Source: a bacterium
Lineage (GTDB): Bacteria; UBP15; UBA6099; DSWB01
Assembly: GCA_020061125.1 (NCBI GenBank)
Contig: JAGUYV010000004.1
Location: forward strand, 1 to 8,767
DNA length: 8,767 bases
Direction of reading: 5' to 3'
In this document: positions 3,201 to 8,767 of the stretch, one piece after another
How the letters are laid out: the number at the start of each line of letters is the position of its first letter
How positions within the stretch are numbered: position 1 is the stretch's first letter
The notes under the pieces: generated by a model
Told to the model about the DNA's origin: nothing
Seen by the model: the letters and a program-made list of their open reading frames with translations, nothing else
Databases searched by the model: none
Translations under genes and position numbers: made by a program

Positions 3201-6200
3201 ACATCCAGCTTTACAACCCGTTCACCACGGCGTATTCCCTCACGGGCCATGTGCTGGGCGACGGCTCCGGCGCCGGGGATGGAGAATACACCATCCCCGC
3301 GGGCCATTCCGTGCCCTCCAAAGGCTATTATCTGATCACGAAAAACGCCACGGAATTCAACAACCGGTTTGCGTGCGATCCCGGGCTTGTGAACCAGTGG
3401 AGCAACATAGATCTGGACAGCGCCGGGGACGAGATTTATCTCAAACTGAACGCCGCGGCAACGCGATCCGTTGATCTTGTGGTGTGGGGCGCGTACAACG
3501 CCGCGGATCTGCCAGAGGGCGCATTCAACGGAACCGCCGCGCCCTTGTCCGGAGACGGCAACAGCATTAAACGCATCACGGACGGATACGAGGGCAACGA
3601 GCGGGATTCCGGTGACGCGGACGCTTCGCCCGAGAATGATGAGGTGCTCGCAAGCACCTTCATGGTTGTGTCTCCGCCCACGCCGTACTGCATGCCGCCC
3701 ACCGCAGGCTCCATCACCGTCATTGACAACGGCGGATACACCAACAGCAGCGCGCCGCCCATGTCCATCGCCTGCGAAGATCCGTCGGGCGTGGAATGCA
3801 ACAGCGGCGACTTCATGCGCCTGGCATGCACCGAGGCAGCACTCTCGTCCGCGTCCTGGAGACCCTTCGAGAAAAAATGCAACGAATCTGGATACGCCTG
3901 CACTTTCAACATTCTGACCGGCCCCGGCTGCTCCGCGGGCGAGGGCGCCAAGACCGTGTGGGTCGAGTTCAAAAACGACAAGGGCAACATCCAGACAACA
4001 CACTCGTCCGACACTACGAATTATGATGTCACACCGCCAGTAATCACGGCCGTGGCCGCGTACTCGGATATGGATCAGTACCTTTGCGGCACAGCGGACG
4101 GGTGTGTGACCCTGAATCCCGTGACCGGCGGCACGGTGTATTTCAACAACCTAGGCGGCGAGGGCAACGGCCAGAAGATGACCGTCGAGCTTACCTGGAA
4201 CGATTCCGGGGGCGCGGGCGGAGCGCGGGATTACTTCATCGGCCAGTACGCTTTCTCCCAGACGCCCACTTACGACGGCGTCACCACGGGCGCGGATTTC
4301 AACGGCGCCGACGGCTGGAAGCAGGTCTATGCCCTCAATTCCGGACAGGGCGACCAGAGCAACATAACCATGACCGTGTACGACAAAGCCGGCAACAGCT
4401 CGAATGTCAAGCTGAACTTTGTTCGCGACAATGCGGATCCCGGCATTTCCTACACATTCCCGTCCGCGGGCGGCAAAACCACCTGGTACAAGACAGACCC
4501 CGGGAATGTCGTGGATGTGGACTTCTCATGGGGCGGCGGAGCGCCCCTGGCCTATGCCCAGTACCGCATCGGCGCGGGCGCGTGGACGAATATTTTCAGC
4601 GCCTTCACATGGGCCAATTATTCCGCCAACTGGGGCATCGCCTGGGCCTCGCTTCCCGAGGGTGTCAACCAGATTTCCGTGCGCATTGTGGACGGCTGCG
4701 GCAATGTGCTATCGCACACTTATGTGGAAAACACCACGGGCTTTATTTTCCGCAAGGACATCACGCCGCCTTCCATCACGGCGGTCACAATCGGCTCAAA
4801 CCAGGAAACATATTTTTACGGGAACAGCGCGGATGCTCTGGACTGCACTGCGGTGGGCGCGTTTCCGGGTGTGACCTGCTCGCCCTGGTTCAACAGCCTG
4901 GCGGGCGAGGGCGGGGGCCAGGCCATCACGGTCACCGTAAGCTGGACGGATGCGGCCTCGTACGACCGTCTTCAGGGGGAACCCGCATTCAACGACACGC
5001 CCGTGGCGGACACGGTCGGCCCGCCATGGACCGTGGTGTATTCCATTGAAAACAATCAGACAAACCAGACCGGCGTTGACTTCAATGTGTATGACCAGGC
5101 CGGCAACAAAGCCACCATCGCCCTGGATTTCAGGCACGACAACACAGACCCGTCGTTCGTGTACAACGATCCCGGCGCGGGCGGCGCCACGCCCTGGTAC
5201 AGCGCGGATCCGGGCGCGGCCGTGGACATTGATCTGGCCTGGTCCTATGGCGCGCCCGTCACGCAGTTCGATTACCAGATCGGCGCGGGCGGGTGGAACA
5301 ACCTGTGGACCGGCGAACAGAGCGCCACATACACGGCCAACTGGGGCATGGCGTGGGCCTCGCTGGCCGAGGGCCACAATGAAATCCATCTGCGCGGATA
5401 CGACGCCGTGGGCAACTCCGCCGTGGCCGCCTATGCGTCCGGAAGCGTCGGGTTCCTGTTCCGCAAGGATGTGTCCGCGCCCGCCAATCCTGCGGTTCCC
5501 GTCAACGCTTGGGACAGCGCGGCAAAGAACGAGGCCCTCACCAGCAGCACAACTTATAATTATCTGAATCCCTACTTCGAGTGGGGCGCGCCCGCGGACA
5601 ATCCCGCGCCCAACAATTCCGGCGTGTACGGTTACTTCGTTTCGTTCTCCACCGATCCAAATCATGATCCAAGCGCTCTTCAAACAGCAACCTCTTACAC
5701 GGCCGCGGCGCCGGGCTGCGGCACGGAATACTATCTGCGCATCAAGACCGCGGACAGCGCCACGCCCACCCGCAATGTGTCGGCTCCGGTCACGGCTTTC
5801 ACCTACATCAATGGCGGCAGCGCCGGCATCACGGACAACCAGGCCGGGGACGACACCTGGCGCAGCGCGCCCGGCACAGCCTACGATGTGGATTTCTCCG
5901 GCGCATGTTCCGCGAACATTGACACCATACAATACGCCATCTGGTCCGCCGCGGACATGAGCGCGGGCACCGGCTCGCAACTCCTGGCCTGGACCACCTT
6001 CGTGTCCTCTCCGGGTTCGGACACCTACACAACGGACTGGACCGTGGACGCCAACTGGGCCTCGCTCGCGGACGGCATCAACTGGGTTTCCGTCAAGGTC
6101 TGCGATGTGACCCCGATTTGCGGCGTGGCAACGGATGTGTTTTATATTTACAAGGACACCATTGGCCCCGACAATCCACCGGCGGCGGCCGCATACGACA

Positions 6201-8767
6201 CGGCGGGCAAGGCAGTAACGCTCACGGATTCCACATGGTACAACTACCCGGCCCCGTATTTCGAATGGGCCGCGGTGTCCGACAACCCGGCCGTGCTCAA
6301 TTCCGGATTCAACACATTCCTGGTTTACTTCGGCACGGATTCCGCGGGCACGCCGGACATCGCCACGGCCGCGCTCAACTTCACCTCCACGGCAACCCTG
6401 GTTTCGGGCCAGTCTTATTACCTGCGCATTTCCGGCCTGGACAACGCGGGCAACGCCACGGCCGCCGCAACCTTGTTCACATACAAATATGACGGCGCCG
6501 CGCCGGACAACCCCACGGTTGTGGCTTACGCCTCGGACGGCATGAACCCGCCCGCGCTCTCAACCGGACTGTGGTACACATTCCCTAATCCGTTCTTCAG
6601 TTGGAGCGGCGCATCGGATCTTCCGGCGGGCGTAGCCGGCGTGGACAATTCGGGCATCCAGGATTACATCTTCTATTTCGGCGATAACCCGGCGGGCGTT
6701 CCCGATTCCGCAACCACCGCGCTCGGTTTCACCTCCACCGCAACACTGGTCTGCAGCAATGTCTATTATCTGCGCATGAGCACTCGCGACAACGCCGGCA
6801 ACGCCACAGGCGCTTCCACGGTGTTCGCCTATCAGTTCGACGGCGACCCGCCGCACTGGGATTACAACAGCCCGGCAACGGGCTCCTTCACTCCGTGGCT
6901 CAACGCGGACCCAGGAAACATTATTGACATTGATCTTGTCTGGGGCGGGTGTTCGCCGCTCACGGATATCGAGTACAGCACGGACACCGTGACATGGAGC
7001 AACGCCTGGTCCGGCAGCCAGACAACGGACAGAACCACGGACTGGGGCGTGCTGTGGGCGGACATGGCCGAAGGCCTCAACGAAATCAGCATCGTGGGCA
7101 TTGACGCCGCGGGCAACAGGGCCACGGACACCTACGCCAGCAACACCGCCGGATTCCTGTTCCGCAAGGACACCACCGGACCGCTGAATCCCGTGGTCAC
7201 GGCGTACGATTCCGCGGCCATGAGCGTGTCTCTGGCCGACAACACATGGTATCGCTATCCCGCGCCGTACTTCACATGGGCCGGCGCAGCCGACCTGCCC
7301 GCGGGCGCGGACGGCGTGGACAATTCAGGCCTCAAGGATTATTTCGTGTACTTCGGCGACAACCCCGCGGGAACGCCCGACACGGCTACCACCGCAACCG
7401 CCCTGCAATCCACGGCCACTCTCGTGTGCGACACTCCTTACTATCTCCGCTTGTACACGCGCGACAATCTCAACAACGCAACCGCCGCGCAGTCCCTGTT
7501 CACCTACAAGTTCGACGGCGATCCTCCGTTCTGGAATTACAACAGCCCGGCCACGGGTTCCTTCACGCCCTGGTACAGCTCCGATCCCGGCAACATCATT
7601 GACATTGATTTGATGTGGGGCGGATGCTCGCCTCTCACGGACATCGAGTACAGCACCGACACTGTCAATTGGCGCAATGTCTGGAACGGCAGCCAGACCG
7701 CGGATGTGACCGCGGACTGGGGCGTTCTGTGGGCCGATTTGGCCGACGGCACCAATGAAATCAGCATCGTGGGCATTGATACGGCCAACAACCGCTCCAC
7801 CGAGACATACGCAGGCAACACCGCCGGGTTCCTTTTCCGCAAGGATACCGTCGCTCCGGATAACCCCGCCGCGCCCGCAAACGCATGGACCACCGACGCA
7901 AAAACTATCCCCGTGGCCGACGGCGCTTCCGAGGGATACGGCACTCTGTACTTCGAATGGGCCGCGCCCGGCGATAATCCCGCGGGCGCGGACGGAACAG
8001 ACAACTCCGGCCTTGACTATTATTACATCGCTTTCTCCACGGATTCCGTGAATCCCGTGTGGGCCACAATCCCCGAAACGCAAAATAATTACTACGCCAC
8101 GCCCACGGAATGCAACGCCACTTACACTCTGATGATCAGGTCCGCGGACAGAGCGGTTCCCTCGGCAAATGTGTCCGCAACGGCCACGCTGTTCACTTAT
8201 ATTTACGGCGGCGAGCCTGTGATCACCGACAACCAGGGCGGCGACGATACCTGGTATAACGCAGACCCCGGCGCTATCTGGGACATTGATTTCGACGCGT
8301 CTTCCTGCAATGTCCTGGACTATGCGCAATACACGATCTATTCCGCGGCCAACGGCGGCGGCTCGCTCGTCAAGGACTGGACATACATCATGGGGCCGGG
8401 CTACGGCCTGAATTCCTATTCCGCGGACTGGGCCATTGATTTCGCGGCCGCGGCCGAGGGCTGGAATTATATCTCCGTGCGCCTGGCCGACACCGGCGGT
8501 GCAGTGGTTTATGCAACGGACGCTTTCTATGTCAAGAAGGACACCACGCCGCCCAACAACGCCCCGGTTTCCGCTTATGACACATCGGCAAAAACCATCA
8601 CCCTCACGGACAGCGTGTGGTACTCTTACCCGAATCCATACTTCGAGTGGTCCGCCATCGCGGATCTCCCCGCGGGCGTGGACGGCACGGACAATTCCGG
8701 CTTCGATCTCGTGAACATCTATTTCGGCACGGACCCGGCGGGCGTTCCCTTCGCCACTACCACTGGC
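2..8767 (+). CDS. Giant multi-domain surface/secreted protein, partial at both ends (at least 2,922 residues)
   Basis: A single frame starting at base 2 is open for 2,922 codons to the window end with no stop. It has neither a credible start nor a stop, so signal peptide and anchoring or secretion signals lie outside. The translation is a mosaic of extracellular beta-sandwich modules: glycine-rich end of a beta-helix, paired repeats A and B, two IPT/TIG, DUF2341, Ig-like, lamin-tail, a Cys-rich Ig-like module, and an array of at least 14 C, D and E modules. The frame is confirmed because repeats match at protein level while their codons differ mostly at third positions. No transmembrane segment or catalytic motif is visible. 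Inferred role: adhesin or long structural surface protein. The individual gene is not one I recognise. Third positions are strongly G/C-biased throughout, with no compositional break that would suggest a chimera. Confidence 0.95.
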   Translation, partial: MTLSGNLQASGGAGGSYTVYGAAGGGGGGGRIKIFASSLADSSTRSVAGGAVGGNNGYTPNGTAGAAGTIWIDSSYAYSYNSGVADTGNITSYSISPVFFGKTFRATHSIPAVGAVSYEIRRASDSAVLCSITAAQAAAGYDIGPESGNCPAWTAEDTPVKIYSVLSTTDFPGTPVIADMTFEYYKRNTVGTPPSYGVGAEQSFTYYTDIPTVKPVSTAGYVFAELVSFSEVLGAGNQGVVRYQISNDGTSWYYHDGSNWAPAYAYAQTNTAAEINANCATFDNEIGGGTLFFRAYLNSDGTQAVQIDSIDITLIAPPTPDITSLAPDHGVSGTTVTITGTDFGTSQGQSTVMFNGVVAGFASAWSNTSITIDAPADVTTGYVVITVRGVQSPKEADSIFTVDAPVVTGLNPSSGYWLTPIIITGSNFGSVQGNSYVTFGGGVRATCTAWANTSLTCTVPAGAATGDVIVTTAGGGSSAANPPATTFTLTADNSIWPFETLAHYSWDADMNVGGGLAYLNSNNAPAWYDPSWQYRRAITIDNTGGGALADFQVQVNLNNTNFSFANAQNDGDDIRFTDTDGTTLLNHWIESYDPASLLATVWVKVPAIAANSTKNVYLYYGNATAGSGSDALATLDVSAWTDGAPAWTEVETSTNINTSGADATLDMQTNNTQNTCTETWGSPCDAQTDSDNTWDGCNNQSGTTTYTKVLEVTLNKTKAPIGDTMQVTCRFQGSSSDNGTEWYIYYYNGSGWALVPGASGNVDADTVFTETHSFTVSGAPGDQWVRCIADQGGTGTQCADNGGAPDYWDNDDARFYVHYKTSGEMRGNSIDSYMQGNTFTASHTVPGSTNITYKILRASDNTTLCSITAAQAASGYDISACAPDAEPIKVWAEMTVSASPPTVAPSIQDYTVSYYGRKTATPQPGATVGPEVRPTYYTTDPTVRNVAGQGLDFLEIISFTELLGPRNQGSVRYQISNNGTNWYWFNGSNWVAETGGGYNQANDAATVDDNILQFDNDAGPGTFYFKAFLRSDGSQPVEIDGISINTAQLTINEVHNDGIRLAEGDDYIQLYNPFTTAYSLTGHVLGDGSGAGDGEYTIPAGHSVPSKGYYLITKNATEFNNRFACDPGLVNQWSNIDLDSAGDEIYLKLNAAATRSVDLVVWGAYNAADLPEGAFNGTAAPLSGDGNSIKRITDGYEGNERDSGDADASPENDEVLASTFMVVSPPTPYCMPPTAGSITVIDNGGYTNSSAPPMSIACEDPSGVECNSGDFMRLACTEAALSSASWRPFEKKCNESGYACTFNILTGPGCSAGEGAKTVWVEFKNDKGNIQTTHSSDTTNYDVTPPVITAVAAYSDMDQYLCGTADGCVTLNPVTGGTVYFNNLGGEGNGQKMTVELTWNDSGGAGGARDYFIGQYAFSQTPTYDGVTTGADFNGADGWKQVYALNSGQGDQSNITMTVYDKAGNSSNVKLNFVRDNADPGISYTFPSAGGKTTWYKTDPGNVVDVDFSWGGGAPLAYAQYRIGAGAWTNIFSAFTWANYSANWGIAWASLPEGVNQISVRIVDGCGNVLSHTYVENTTGFIFRKDITPPSITAVTIGSNQETYFYGNSADALDCTAVGAFPGVTCSPWFNSLAGEGGGQAITVTVSWTDAASYDRLQGEPAFNDTPVADTVGPPWTVVYSIENNQTNQTGVDFNVYDQAGNKATIALDFRHDNTDPSFVYNDPGAGGATPWYSADPGAAVDIDLAWSYGAPVTQFDYQIGAGGWNNLWTGEQSATYTANWGMAWASLAEGHNEIHLRGYDAVGNSAVAAYASGSVGFLFRKDVSAPANPAVPVNAWDSAAKNEALTSSTTYNYLNPYFEWGAPADNPAPNNSGVYGYFVSFSTDPNHDPSALQTATSYTAAAPGCGTEYYLRIKTADSATPTRNVSAPVTAFTYINGGSAGITDNQAGDDTWRSAPGTAYDVDFSGACSANIDTIQYAIWSAADMSAGTGSQLLAWTTFVSSPGSDTYTTDWTVDANWASLADGINWVSVKVCDVTPICGVATDVFYIYKDTIGPDNPPAAAAYDTAGKAVTLTDSTWYNYPAPYFEWAAVSDNPAVLNSGFNTFLVYFGTDSAGTPDIATAALNFTSTATLVSGQSYYLRISGLDNAGNATAAATLFTYKYDGAAPDNPTVVAYASDGMNPPALSTGLWYTFPNPFFSWSGASDLPAGVAGVDNSGIQDYIFYFGDNPAGVPDSATTALGFTSTATLVCSNVYYLRMSTRDNAGNATGASTVFAYQFDGDPPHWDYNSPATGSFTPWLNADPGNIIDIDLVWGGCSPLTDIEYSTDTVTWSNAWSGSQTTDRTTDWGVLWADMAEGLNEISIVGIDAAGNRATDTYASNTAGFLFRKDTTGPLNPVVTAYDSAAMSVSLADNTWYRYPAPYFTWAGAADLPAGADGVDNSGLKDYFVYFGDNPAGTPDTATTATALQSTATLVCDTPYYLRLYTRDNLNNATAAQSLFTYKFDGDPPFWNYNSPATGSFTPWYSSDPGNIIDIDLMWGGCSPLTDIEYSTDTVNWRNVWNGSQTADVTADWGVLWADLADGTNEISIVGIDTANNRSTETYAGNTAGFLFRKDTVAPDNPAAPANAWTTDAKTIPVADGASEGYGTLYFEWAAPGDNPAGADGTDNSGLDYYYIAFSTDSVNPVWATIPETQNNYYATPTECNATYTLMIRSADRAVPSANVSATATLFTYIYGGEPVITDNQGGDDTWYNADPGAIWDIDFDASSCNVLDYAQYTIYSAANGGGSLVKDWTYIMGPGYGLNSYSADWAIDFAAAAEGWNYISVRLADTGGAVVYATDAFYVKKDTTPPNNAPVSAYDTSAKTITLTDSVWYSYPNPYFEWSAIADLPAGVDGTDNSGFDLVNIYFGTDPAGVPFATTTG
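71..91 (+). repeat. (GGC)7 trinucleotide tract encoding seven glycines
   Basis: Seven perfect GGC units in the reading frame, immediately before the CGC ATC AAA codons of the RIK motif. Slippage here would add or remove whole glycines without breaking the frame. Confidence 0.9.
281..946 (+). repeat. Repeat A: beta-sandwich module, paralogue of repeat B
   Basis: Residues 94-315. The first half carries a pattern T-F-x-A-x-H-x-(I/V)-P followed by Y-E-I-R-R-A-S-D and LCSITAAQAAAGYDI. The second half has VRYQISNDGTSWYY, then DGSNW, then FFRAYLNSDGTQAVQIDSI. The second half looks like the all-beta, ligand-binding-like segments found in large secreted bacterial proteins, where a Y-Q-x-S-x-x-G-x-x-W-Y strand pairs with a later F-x-A-x-L-x-S-D-G strand. 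The same two halves occur in the same order at 2486-3136. I cannot assign a named family or a ligand. Confidence 0.8.
959..1207 (+). other. IPT/TIG domain 1
   Basis: Residues 320-402. It begins P-D-I-T-S-L-A-P-D-H-G and continues with SGTTVTITGTDFG, then VMFNG, then S-I-T-I-D-A-P and GYVVITVRG. This is the standard IPT/TIG (Ig-like, plexin, transcription factor) pattern: I-x-x-(L/I)-x-P-x-x-G, T-I-x-G-x-x-F-G, V-x-F-x-G, a P at the strand end, and a final V-x-V strand. In bacterial surface proteins such domains serve as structural spacers or sugar- and protein-binding units. It is followed after two residues by a second copy. Confidence 0.9.
1214..1471 (+). other. IPT/TIG domain 2
   Basis: Residues 405-490. 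The order of motifs is P-V-V-T-G-L-N-P-S-S-G, then PIIITGSNFGS, then YVTFGGG, then TCTAWANTSLTCTVPAG, then GDVIVTTAGG. This is a canonical IPT/TIG domain directly after the first, making a tandem pair. It differs in carrying two cysteines flanking the AWANTSLT strand, possibly an internal disulfide; domain 1 has none at that place. Confidence 0.9.
1472..1585 (+). other. Linker between IPT/TIG pair and DUF2341
   Basis: Residues 491-528, rich in aromatic, Asn, Ala and Gly residues, including WPFETLAHYSWDAD and a GGG turn. No domain is recognised. It joins the tandem IPT/TIG pair to the DUF2341 module without a frame break. Confidence 0.6.
1586..1876 (+). other. DUF2341 domain (PF10102-like)
   Basis: Residues 529-625. 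It opens DPSWQYRRAITIDN, continues with FQVQVNLNNTNF, then GDDIRFTDTDG, then LNHWIESYD, then ATVWVKVPAIAANSTKN, and ends VYLYYGNATA. This order (W-x-Y-R-R-x-I-T-I start, D-I-R-F-x-x-x-D-G, the W-I-E-x-(Y/W) strand, V-W-V-K-(V/I)-P, and a final Y-Y-G-N) is diagnostic of DUF2341, an all-beta module of secreted and surface proteins often placed beside lectin-like or Ig-like domains. Its biochemical activity is not established; carbohydrate binding is an often-made guess. It looks complete. Confidence 0.92.
1877..2125 (+). other. Cysteine-containing spacer, unrecognised
   Basis: Residues 626-708. The segment is rich in Thr, Asn and Asp and contains three cysteines within about 24 residues, in TCTETW, SPCDAQ and DGCNNQ, after a WTDGAPAWTEVE strand. 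It could be a small disulfide-stabilised insertion or the N-terminal half of the adjoining Ig-like domain. No family is recognised. Confidence 0.5.
2126..2458 (+). other. Ig-like domain with a B-F type cysteine pair
   Basis: Residues 709-819. A strand L-E-V-T-L-N precedes GDTMQVTCRF (Cys 729), then EWYIYYYNGSGW, then FTVSGAPGDQWVRCIAD (Cys 787), and a final ARFYVHY strand. The V-x-C ... D-x-W-V-x-C spacing of 58 residues, with a Trp-containing strand between, resembles the canonical Ig disulfide joining strands B and F. The assignment rests on this pattern alone. An extra cysteine follows in TQCADNGG. Confidence 0.6.
2486..3136 (+). repeat. Repeat B: second copy of the A module
   Basis: Residues 829-1045. 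It aligns with residues 94-315 over its whole length: ASHTVP against ATHSIP, YKILRASD against YEIRRASD, LCSITAAQAASGYDI against LCSITAAQAAAGYDI, VRYQISNNGTNWY against VRYQISNDGTSWY, and FFRAYLNSDG replaced by FYFKAFLRSDG. Both are preceded by unrelated modules, so an ancestral unit was probably duplicated and the IPT/TIG, DUF2341 and Ig-like block inserted or shuffled between. The second copy leads directly into the lamin-tail domain. Confidence 0.85.
3143..3646 (+). other. Lamin-tail (LTD, PF00932-like) domain
   Basis: Residues 1048-1215. The sequence runs QLTINEVHNDG, then DDYIQLYNPFTTAYSLTGHVLGDG, then YTIPAGHSVPSKGYYLITKN, then DLDSAGDEIYLK, then VDLVVWG, then GNSIKRITDGY, and ends in an Asp- and Pro-rich tail. 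The I-N-E-V start, the D-Y-I-(E/Q)-L-Y-N-P strand, I-P-A-G-x-x-(I/V)-P, L-x-x-x-G-D-x-(I/V)-x-L, and the S-I-x-R strand are the hallmarks of bacterial LTD domains. They are Ig-fold modules of secreted proteins thought to mediate binding or surface attachment; no enzyme domain adjoins it here. Confidence 0.9.
3689..4030 (+). other. Seven-cysteine Ig-like module
   Basis: Residues 1230-1343. The frame of the module, G-S-I-T-V-I-D-N-G-G-Y-T-N-S, then M-S-I-A-C-E-D-P-S-G-V, then F-M-R-L-A-C, then S-W-R-P-F, then G-A-K-T-V-W-V-E-F-K-N-D-K-G-N, then D-V-T-P-P, matches the common bacterial Ig-like repeat with an N-S strand, D-x-S-G-V turn, W-x-x-(F/Y) strand and K-T-V-x-V-x-F-x-D-x-x-G-N strand. It carries seven cysteines (YC, IAC, VEC, LAC, KKC, YAC, PGC) where the family usually has few or none, so several intradomain disulfides are likely. 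Confidence 0.7.
4040..4441 (+). repeat. C1: Ig-like repeat of type C
   Basis: Residues 1347-1480. It begins ITAVAAYSD, has a close cysteine pair in LCGTADGCV, the signature YFNNLGGEGNGQ, a TVELTW strand, and closes with NITMTVYDKAGNSSNVKL and DNADP. The pattern recurs at 4772-5152. The D-x-A-G-N turn followed by a short strand and an Asp-rich D-P linker is typical of bacterial Ig-like repeats. It directly precedes a D module. Confidence 0.7.
4442..4771 (+). repeat. D1: 110-residue repeat of type D
   Basis: Residues 1481-1590. The D signature is W-Y-K-T-D-P-G, then V-D-V-D-F-S-W, then Y-A-Q-Y-R-I, then A-N-W-G-I-A-W-A-S-L-P-E-G, then N-Q-I-S-V-R, and closure G-F-I-F-R-K-D. It follows a C module and has Gly (bases 4538-4540) where later D modules have Cys. 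A lone cysteine sits in the D-G-C-G-N turn. Confidence 0.8.
4772..5152 (+). repeat. C2: Ig-like repeat of type C
   Basis: Residues 1591-1717. It matches C1 through SITAVT, a cysteine pair (LDCTAVGAFPGVTC), WFNSLAGEGGGQ, ITVTVSW, FNVYDQAGNKATIAL and DNTDP. Spacing between the cysteines is wider than in C1 (11 against 5 residues between them) but the place, just before the FN-S/N-L-x-G-E-G motif, is conserved. Confidence 0.7.
5153..5482 (+). repeat. D2: 110-residue repeat of type D
   Basis: Residues 1718-1827. It has WYSADPG, VDIDLAW, FDYQIGAGGW, TANWGMAWASLAEGHNEI, then YDAVGN, and closure GFLFRKD. Its length equals D1, D4 and D5 exactly. It follows C2, contains no cysteine, and has Gly (bases 5249-5251) at the staple position. 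It is the last D before the E modules begin. Confidence 0.8.
5483..5818 (+). repeat. E1: Fn3-like repeat of type E (subtype a)
   Basis: Residues 1828-1939. The E pattern is P-A-N-P, A-W-D-S-A-A-K, then Y-L-N-P-Y-F-E-W-G-A-P-A-D-N-P, then N-S-G-V-Y-G-Y-F-V-S-F-S-T-D, then the strand before it P-G-C-G-T-E-Y-Y-L-R-I-K-T-A-D, and ends T-A-F-T-Y. The F-E-W strand, the Y-F-V-x-F strand and the Y-Y-L-R-I strand match strands B, C and F of fibronectin type III domains. Cys 1906 (bases 5717-5719) lies just before YYLR. Its closest relative in the window is E5. Confidence 0.75.
5819..6169 (+). repeat. D3: long repeat of type D with an extra cysteine pair
   Basis: Residues 1940-2056 (117 residues, seven more than D1, D2, D4 and D5). 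It begins ITDNQAGDDTW, has YDVDFSGACSAN (Cys 1969, bases 5906-5908), IQYAIWSAA, then DWTVDANWASLADGIN, WVSVKVCDVTPICGV and closure FYIYKD. The turn usually occupied by A-G-N is replaced by a loop closed by two cysteines six residues apart. It resembles D6 in start and ending. Confidence 0.75.
6170..6505 (+). repeat. E2: Fn3-like repeat of type E, without cysteine
   Basis: Residues 2057-2168. It shows AYDTAGKAVTLTDSTWYNYPAP in its first part (read as AYDTAGK, VTLTDSTWYNYP), YFEWAAVSDNP, FNTFLVYFGTD, then LVSGQSYYLRISGLDNAGN and FTYKYDG. At the place where other complete E modules have Cys it has Ser (TCG at 6404-6406). It is the only complete E followed by another E instead of a D. Confidence 0.75.
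6506..6853 (+). repeat. E3: Fn3-like repeat of type E
   Basis: Residues 2169-2284. It has DNPTVVAYASDG, LWYTFPNPFFSWSGASDLPAG, VDNSGIQDYIFYFGDNPAG, then STATLVCSNVYYLRM (Cys 2251, bases 6752-6754), TRDNAGNATG and FDGDPP. With D4 it forms a unit repeated immediately downstream as E4-D5. Confidence 0.75.
6854..7183 (+). repeat. D4: 110-residue repeat of type D
   Basis: Residues 2285-2394. It has YNSPATGSFTPW, LNADPGNIIDIDLVWGGCSP (Cys 2317, bases 6950-6952), IEYSTDTVTW, DWGVLWADMAEGLNEISIVG, IDAAGN and GFLFRKDTTGP. It is about 79% identical to D5 over 110 aligned residues by hand count (23 differences, no gap), the closest pair in the array. Confidence 0.85.
7184..7528 (+). repeat. E4: Fn3-like repeat of type E
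   Basis: Residues 2395-2509. It has VTAYDSAAMSVSL, TWYRYPAPYFTWAGAADLPAG, GVDNSGLKDYFVYFGDNPAG, then STATLVCDTPYYLRLYTRDN (Cys 2476, bases 7427-7429) and FTYKFDGDPP. It aligns along its length with E3; the NPAG, LPAG and VDNSG segments are nearly unchanged. Confidence 0.75.
7529..7858 (+). repeat. D5: 110-residue repeat of type D
   Basis: Residues 2510-2619. It has YNSPATGSFTPW, YSSDPGNIIDIDLMWGGCSP (Cys 2542, bases 7625-7627), IEYSTDTVNW, DWGVLWADLADGTNEISIVG and GFLFRKDTVAP. It matches D4 without a gap, while codons differ at many third positions, so the protein sequence has been held by selection since the duplication. Confidence 0.85.
7859..8218 (+). repeat. E5: Fn3-like repeat of type E (subtype a)
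   Basis: Residues 2620-2739. It starts DNPAAPANAWTTDAK, continues LYFEWAAPGDNPAG, TDNSGLDYYYIAFSTDS, then TECNATYTLMIRSADRA (Cys 2704, bases 8111-8113) and FTYIYGG. It shares with E1 the NAW start, A-F-S-T-D or S-F-S-T-D strand, the R-S-A-D/K-T-A-D turn followed by P-x-x-N-V-S-A, and the TYI ending, which sets these two apart from the other E modules. Confidence 0.75.
8219..8554 (+). repeat. D6: repeat of type D (D3 subtype)
   Basis: Residues 2740-2851. It has ITDNQGGDDTWYNADPG, WDIDFDASSCN (Cys 2769, bases 8306-8308), AQYTIYSAANGGGSLV, SADWAIDFAAAAEGWNYISVRLAD and closure FYVKKDTTPP. The ITDNQ-x-G-D-D-T-W start, the Y-x-I-(Y/W)-S-A-A strand with a G-rich insertion, and the F-Y-x-x-K-D ending are shared with D3 and absent from the other four D modules. 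Confidence 0.75.
8555..8767 (+). repeat. E6: Fn3-like repeat of type E, cut by the window end
   Basis: Residues 2852-2922. The visible part has VSAYDTSAKTITLTD, VWYSYPNPYFEWSAIADLPAG, TDNSGFDLVNIYFGTDPAG. It is closest in start to E2, which holds the same place after D3 as this one does after D6, though its LPAG and TDNSG segments resemble E3 and E4. The strand that would show whether it has the cysteine lies downstream. Confidence 0.75.

Follow-up and report, generated by a model that had tools for sequence, protein, structure and literature searches.

The joints between the domains of the giant adhesin SiiE are stiffened by calcium. Adjacent domains may also be joined covalently: in the Siglec MAG a disulfide between Ig1 and Ig2 (C37-C165) has been cited among the causes of limited interdomain flexibility (PMC5150538), and in PelI an artificial disulfide (T70C/N240C) locks a fibronectin type III (FN3) domain to its catalytic neighbour (PMC7949064). 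The giant adhesin of Mobiluncus mulieris carries cross-links inside its domains, including the disulfide Cys6887-Cys6895, and its interdomain linker has been described as flexible (PMC10619420). In FN3 tandems the joints are formed by loops near the termini, the BC loop of FNIII 8 being buried at the FNIII 7-8 joint (PMC2818841). No interdomain disulfide between two bacterial FN3 domains was found in the open literature searched, which does not prove that none exists.

The window analyzed here (8,767 nt) is the whole of contig JAGUYV010000004.1 (G000:C208) and belongs to a 4.1 Mb genome, 79% complete, in 513 contigs. Frame 2 of its + strand runs through the whole window without a stop codon (2922 amino acids), and the gene is cut at both window ends. 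A Pfam scan of the whole protein detected a DUF2341 domain, two TIG domains and a lamin tail domain in its first half and no model over cut-off in the region of the E and D modules; fn3 gave no match at E<=1 in that scan, a type of profile search that can miss distant FN3 domains, and no PDB sequence matched the E/D modules at E<=0.1. The modules are as follows, with the source of each assignment in brackets:

4433-4759, + strand: D1 module after a C module, used as control; Gly in the BC loop, lone FG-loop C1566 (HMM scan and cysteine list)
5141-5470, + strand: D2 module after a C module, used as control; Gly in the BC loop, no cysteine (HMM scan)
5468-5809, + strand: E1 module, FN3-like; C1906, codon 5717-5719, in the EF loop (HMM scan and cysteine list)
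5822-6160, + strand: D3 module; C1969, codon 5906-5908, in the BC loop, plus C2034 (6101) and C2040 (6119) (HMM scan and cysteine list)
6155-6493, + strand: E2 module, followed by E3; Ser replaces the cysteine (HMM scan)
6491-6841, + strand: E3 module; C2251, codon 6752-6754, in the EF loop of the model (HMM scan, AlphaFold2 and cysteine list)
6845-7174, + strand: D4 module; C2317, codon 6950-6952, in the BC loop of the model (HMM scan, AlphaFold2 and cysteine list)
7169-7516, + strand: E4 module; C2476, codon 7427-7429 (HMM scan and cysteine list)
7520-7849, + strand: D5 module; C2542, codon 7625-7627 (HMM scan and cysteine list)
7844-8206, + strand: E5 module; C2704, codon 8111-8113 (HMM scan and cysteine list)
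8213-8545, + strand: D6 module; C2769, codon 8306-8308 (HMM scan and cysteine list)
8540-8764, + strand: E6 module, truncated at the contig end ahead of its EF loop and uninformative (HMM scan)

A preliminary description of this DNA had reported one cysteine in every E module directly followed by a D (E1, E3, E4 and E5, at residues 1906, 2251, 2476 and 2704) and one in every D module directly preceded by an E (D3, D4, D5 and D6, at residues 1969, 2317, 2542 and 2769). All of these were confirmed, as were the controls within the protein (Gly at the BC position of D1 and D2, Ser in E2). Apart from the junction residue there is no cysteine in E1, E3, E4, E5, D4, D5 or D6; the first reading had overlooked C2034 and C2040 in D3 and the lone C1566 in D1. 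If modules were independent, the match between neighbours within the window would have a chance probability of 1/5 x 1/15 = 0.013, but duplicates are present among them and they are not independent: E3-D4 and E4-D5 are duplicates, about 70% identical. The two additional cysteines of D3 lie in and after strand F (VKVCDVTPICG, window 6101-6121) and were not observed in the remaining D modules. They might bond to one another or compete for C1969, and because D3 has these further cysteines, the pairing at E1-D3 is ambiguous and this junction is the least certain one.

The E3-D4 pair was modelled with AlphaFold2 from a 48-row alignment. The model consisted of two end-to-end FN3-like domains (pLDDT 92.3, pTM 0.80), each a beta-sandwich of FN3 topology, and both domains together could be fitted to the titin FN3 tandem A77-A78 (3lpw; Z 9.2, 3.7 A, 185 residues) and to fibronectin Fn7B89 (3t1w; Z 9.7, 4.4 A, 170 residues), which bears out the proposed FN3-like nature of the E and D modules. 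C2251 (model residue 88) is located between strands 79-81 and 91-100 of E, in the EF loop just before the long strand, and C2317 (model residue 154) between strands 145-150 and 157-163 of D, in the BC loop. As anticipated in the preliminary description, the EF loop of E and the BC loop of D thus lie on facing poles, in E3-D4 by the model and in the remaining pairs by alignment; loops of this kind meet at FN3-tandem joints such as those of fibronectin. That description had also regarded the D-E joints as hinges. A control model of D4-E4, the reverse order with no cysteine pair at the joint, gave no support to this idea (pTM 0.84 vs 0.80 for E3-D4; pLDDT 94.7), the comparison being a weak test as AlphaFold2 does not measure flexibility. 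Facing the preceding D, module E3 has a long acidic BC loop (window 6605-6655, DLPAGVDGVDNSG-like), which is also present in E4, E5 and E6 and corresponds to block 41-50 of the model, where pLDDT is low. In E modules of the UBP15 type this loop resembles a potential calcium site and might make D-E joints stiffer; the acidic insert is missing from the E modules of Elusimicrobiota.

With profiles built from the window modules, searches covered paralogues within the genome of the window (contigs C110, C101, C137, C138 and C64), the remaining six genomes of the class, and contigs of Elusimicrobiota, Caldiserica and Omnitrophota; contigs were also scanned for E-D junctions using a 5-row E-D alignment as query. 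From the genome of the window, its order and Elusimicrobiota, 28 native E-D junctions were obtained: 13 with a cysteine on both sides, 15 with none on either side, and none mixed. Independent variation of the two cysteines among homologues, which would have spoken against a bond, was thus absent (0 discordant junctions of 28). The corresponding Fisher tests (p = 2.7e-8 for the 28 junctions; p = 0.0018 for the 16 from the window's own order) are naive and inflated by shared descent. Three Cys-less junctions belong to the window's order (L021 3181, L022 1777 and L050 676), the other 12 of the 15 to Elusimicrobiota-type arrays. No further E-D junctions were found in other contigs of the class (seven genomes). 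Where a D follows another D, the BC-loop cysteine is absent in 256 of 257 cases, and 15 of the 17 cysteines in E modules of the window's order are in the EF loop. The register of the cysteines differs between pairs by one or two residues; therefore, it is the placement in the loop that is conserved and not one frozen motif.

The same survey bears on the possibility that the cysteines are paired elsewhere, either within D3 (C1969 to C2034 or to C2040), across adjacent chains or in a metal site. The three cysteines of D3 would agree with this, as would a second group of modules: in the D1-type modules of six related loci, a BC-loop and an FG-loop cysteine always occur together (KCP...DGCGN), after a non-E module. 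These two residues are likely to form an intradomain bond in the D1 clade, and the BC-loop cysteine of D is accordingly not exclusive to E-D joints. However, 12 of the 13 Cys/Cys pairs contain exactly two cysteines in about 230 residues, E1-D3 being the exception, so that no intradomain partner is available in them because neither module holds any other cysteine; bonds between chains, in turn, need no co-occurrence with the direct neighbour. We consider pairing elsewhere quite unlikely as the general explanation. The D1 module of the window has only the FG-loop cysteine (C1566, 4697-4699), whereas its counterparts in L054, L057, L059, L060, L063 and L064 have a second one in the BC loop (KCP); half of the putative intradomain bond has apparently been lost from the window D1, which keeps the FG cysteine only.

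Adjacency of E and D, to which the cysteines had been ascribed in the preliminary description, was not sufficient to explain their distribution. A neighbouring D does not call for a cysteine in E, given the 15 E-D junctions with neither residue. Nor is the E cysteine confined to E-D joints: two Cys-bearing E modules of two families (L022 E2242 and L050 E1454) precede a different domain with a cysteine at its first residues (...YYLECKAKPDYF and YYYDCGVDPDYL, respectively), and seven Cys-less E modules precede Cys-less starts of an apparently homologous domain. The non-D domain with the initial cysteine may represent another matched partner of the E cysteine, a case that is only suggestive because this domain holds other cysteines. 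As read from the sequences, the rule is one of a matched partner and not one of E-D order. It is conceivable, if somewhat doubtful, that a transferable junction rule of this kind operates in giant proteins of candidate phyla; the EF-loop cysteine of a donor FN3-like module would always be met by an N-terminal-pole cysteine in the next module, be it a D or a different domain, both halves would be gained or lost when modules are shuffled, and the stiffness of the chain would be set by how the staples are distributed along it.

Several other features of the related loci were observed. Long arrays of D modules (ITDNQxGDDTW...) with hardly any cysteine occur in giant proteins from Elusimicrobiota, Caldiserica and Omnitrophota bins (L095, L097, L100, L101 and L103-L109). 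The second D module of L054 (ORF residues 1985-2096), L057, L059 and L063 contains CPAC or CPSC in its first loop (NNIAGCPACDDTW), conserved in related genomes, a motif that likely forms a local disulfide. L023 and L024 (the short contigs C137 and C138 of the window's genome) both start with near-identical E-E-D modules and then diverge; they represent either paralogues or fragments of repetitive sequence that is hard to assemble. The C-terminal domain of L050 (7543-7992), ending in GKFTVVR, has a weak likeness to the sorting tails of type IX secretion (PorU/PorZ ends; TIGR04183 scored below cut-off), and the ends of L051 and L062 are similar to it.

Many of the E-D pairs are duplicates, and the 28 junctions reduce to few independent events. 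In a tree of whole pairs, built with the cysteines masked, three state changes were found (at least two forced), both sides changing each time. The E tree showed five changes (bootstrap 4-6) when any cysteine within the next 45 residues was scored, a scheme under which two L056 rows were counted that are not junction cysteines. In the D tree there were six changes, at least four of them forced on supported branches; the four independent contrasts on these branches comprised three that agree with the preceding E, none that oppose it and one uninformative contrast, in which the preceding E shows no difference and which we read as the D1 clade. The independent contrasts were too few for phylogenetic sign tests to reach 0.05.

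These trees are relevant to an explanation by shared descent, in which E-D blocks were duplicated together with two unrelated ancestral cysteines that form no bond. The high identity of E3-D4 and E4-D5, the mere three changes needed by the pair tree and the low power of the formal tests would be in line with it. Against it, the cysteine occurs in both D subfamilies and beside closely related Cys-less D modules, four supported changes are forced on the D tree, and all the contrasts involving E agree. In addition, window E2, L021 3069 and L021 3181, about 60% identical to E3/E4, are Cys-less exactly where the next module is Cys-less, and a neutral exposed cysteine should have disappeared on its own from some copies, which happened in none. 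Shared descent alone is in our opinion an unlikely explanation. The covariation of the E and D cysteines, clean in its direction, constitutes strong circumstantial evidence for their pairing, short of proof because the formal test lacks power.

A third alternative, that the thiols remain reduced, with a different function or with no function at all, appears very improbable in view of the type of protein and its genomic setting. Paralogues of the giant protein have signal-peptide-like N-termini, as in proteins of exported type, and the same protein contains other Cys-paired modules. VKOR drives disulfide formation outside the cytoplasm, and this enzyme was found over cut-off in all seven genomes of the class, including that of the window. 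A DsbA-like partner (Thioredoxin_4) was clear in five of the seven, gave a sub-cut-off match in the incomplete genome of the window, and was not found in G005 by the profile search of these seven genomes.

The best explanation, which we consider probable, is an interdomain disulfide between the EF-loop cysteine of E and the BC-loop cysteine of the next module, stapling the joint; formation of the bond is inferred from the positions and co-occurrence of the cysteines, the FN3-like fold and the facing loops of the E3-D4 model. According to this proposal, E and D would be beta-sandwich domains of FN3-like type, arranged end to end along a giant exported protein, in which an E with an EF-loop cysteine at its C-terminal pole is followed by a module with a BC-loop cysteine at its N-terminal pole. 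After export the two cysteines would form the disulfide, and the pair of modules would be covalently stapled at the joint, presumably stiffening or protecting it in a long, fibre-like surface or secreted protein. The original claim of a staple in each E-D pair is therefore retained in part: covariation and the facing poles of the E3-D4 model favour it, while E1-D3 is ambiguous and 15 junctions are Cys-less. If the bonds form, particular neighbours in a mixed-module chain would be selectively and covalently locked, in a manner readable from the sequence as one cysteine per side. The system would then offer a simple test bed for the tuning of stiffness in repeat proteins. It would also allow modules that behave as a single unit to be predicted in uncultured bacteria with surface proteins beyond the reach of direct study. 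The same E-D joint occurs naturally with and without the cysteine pair in one genome, which eases tests.

Interdomain Ig disulfides are already known, and the proposed E-D staple would be a new variant on that theme. MAG resembles it in that a natural disulfide joins two adjacent beta-sandwich domains, as is proposed for the E-D pairs, but in MAG the domains are vertebrate Ig domains with a single such junction, whereas those of the E-D protein are bacterial and FN3-like, with junctions that are repeated and selective along one chain. The FN3 tandems of fibronectin and titin (3t1w, 3lpw) share with E-D the end-to-end arrangement and a joint made of polar loops, to which the second module of a pair contributes its BC loop; they differ in that no disulfide at the joint has been described for them in the literature searched, and they have no detectable sequence kinship with E or D. 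Among bacterial proteins, the adhesin of M. mulieris is likewise a giant repeat protein with covalent cross-links that include disulfides, although its cross-links are intradomain. SiiE (2yn5, the top Foldseek match) and other bacterial Ig-like stalks are also giant surface proteins of repeated beta-sandwich domains; the joints of SiiE are stiffened by calcium, where cysteine pairs are proposed in the E-D protein.
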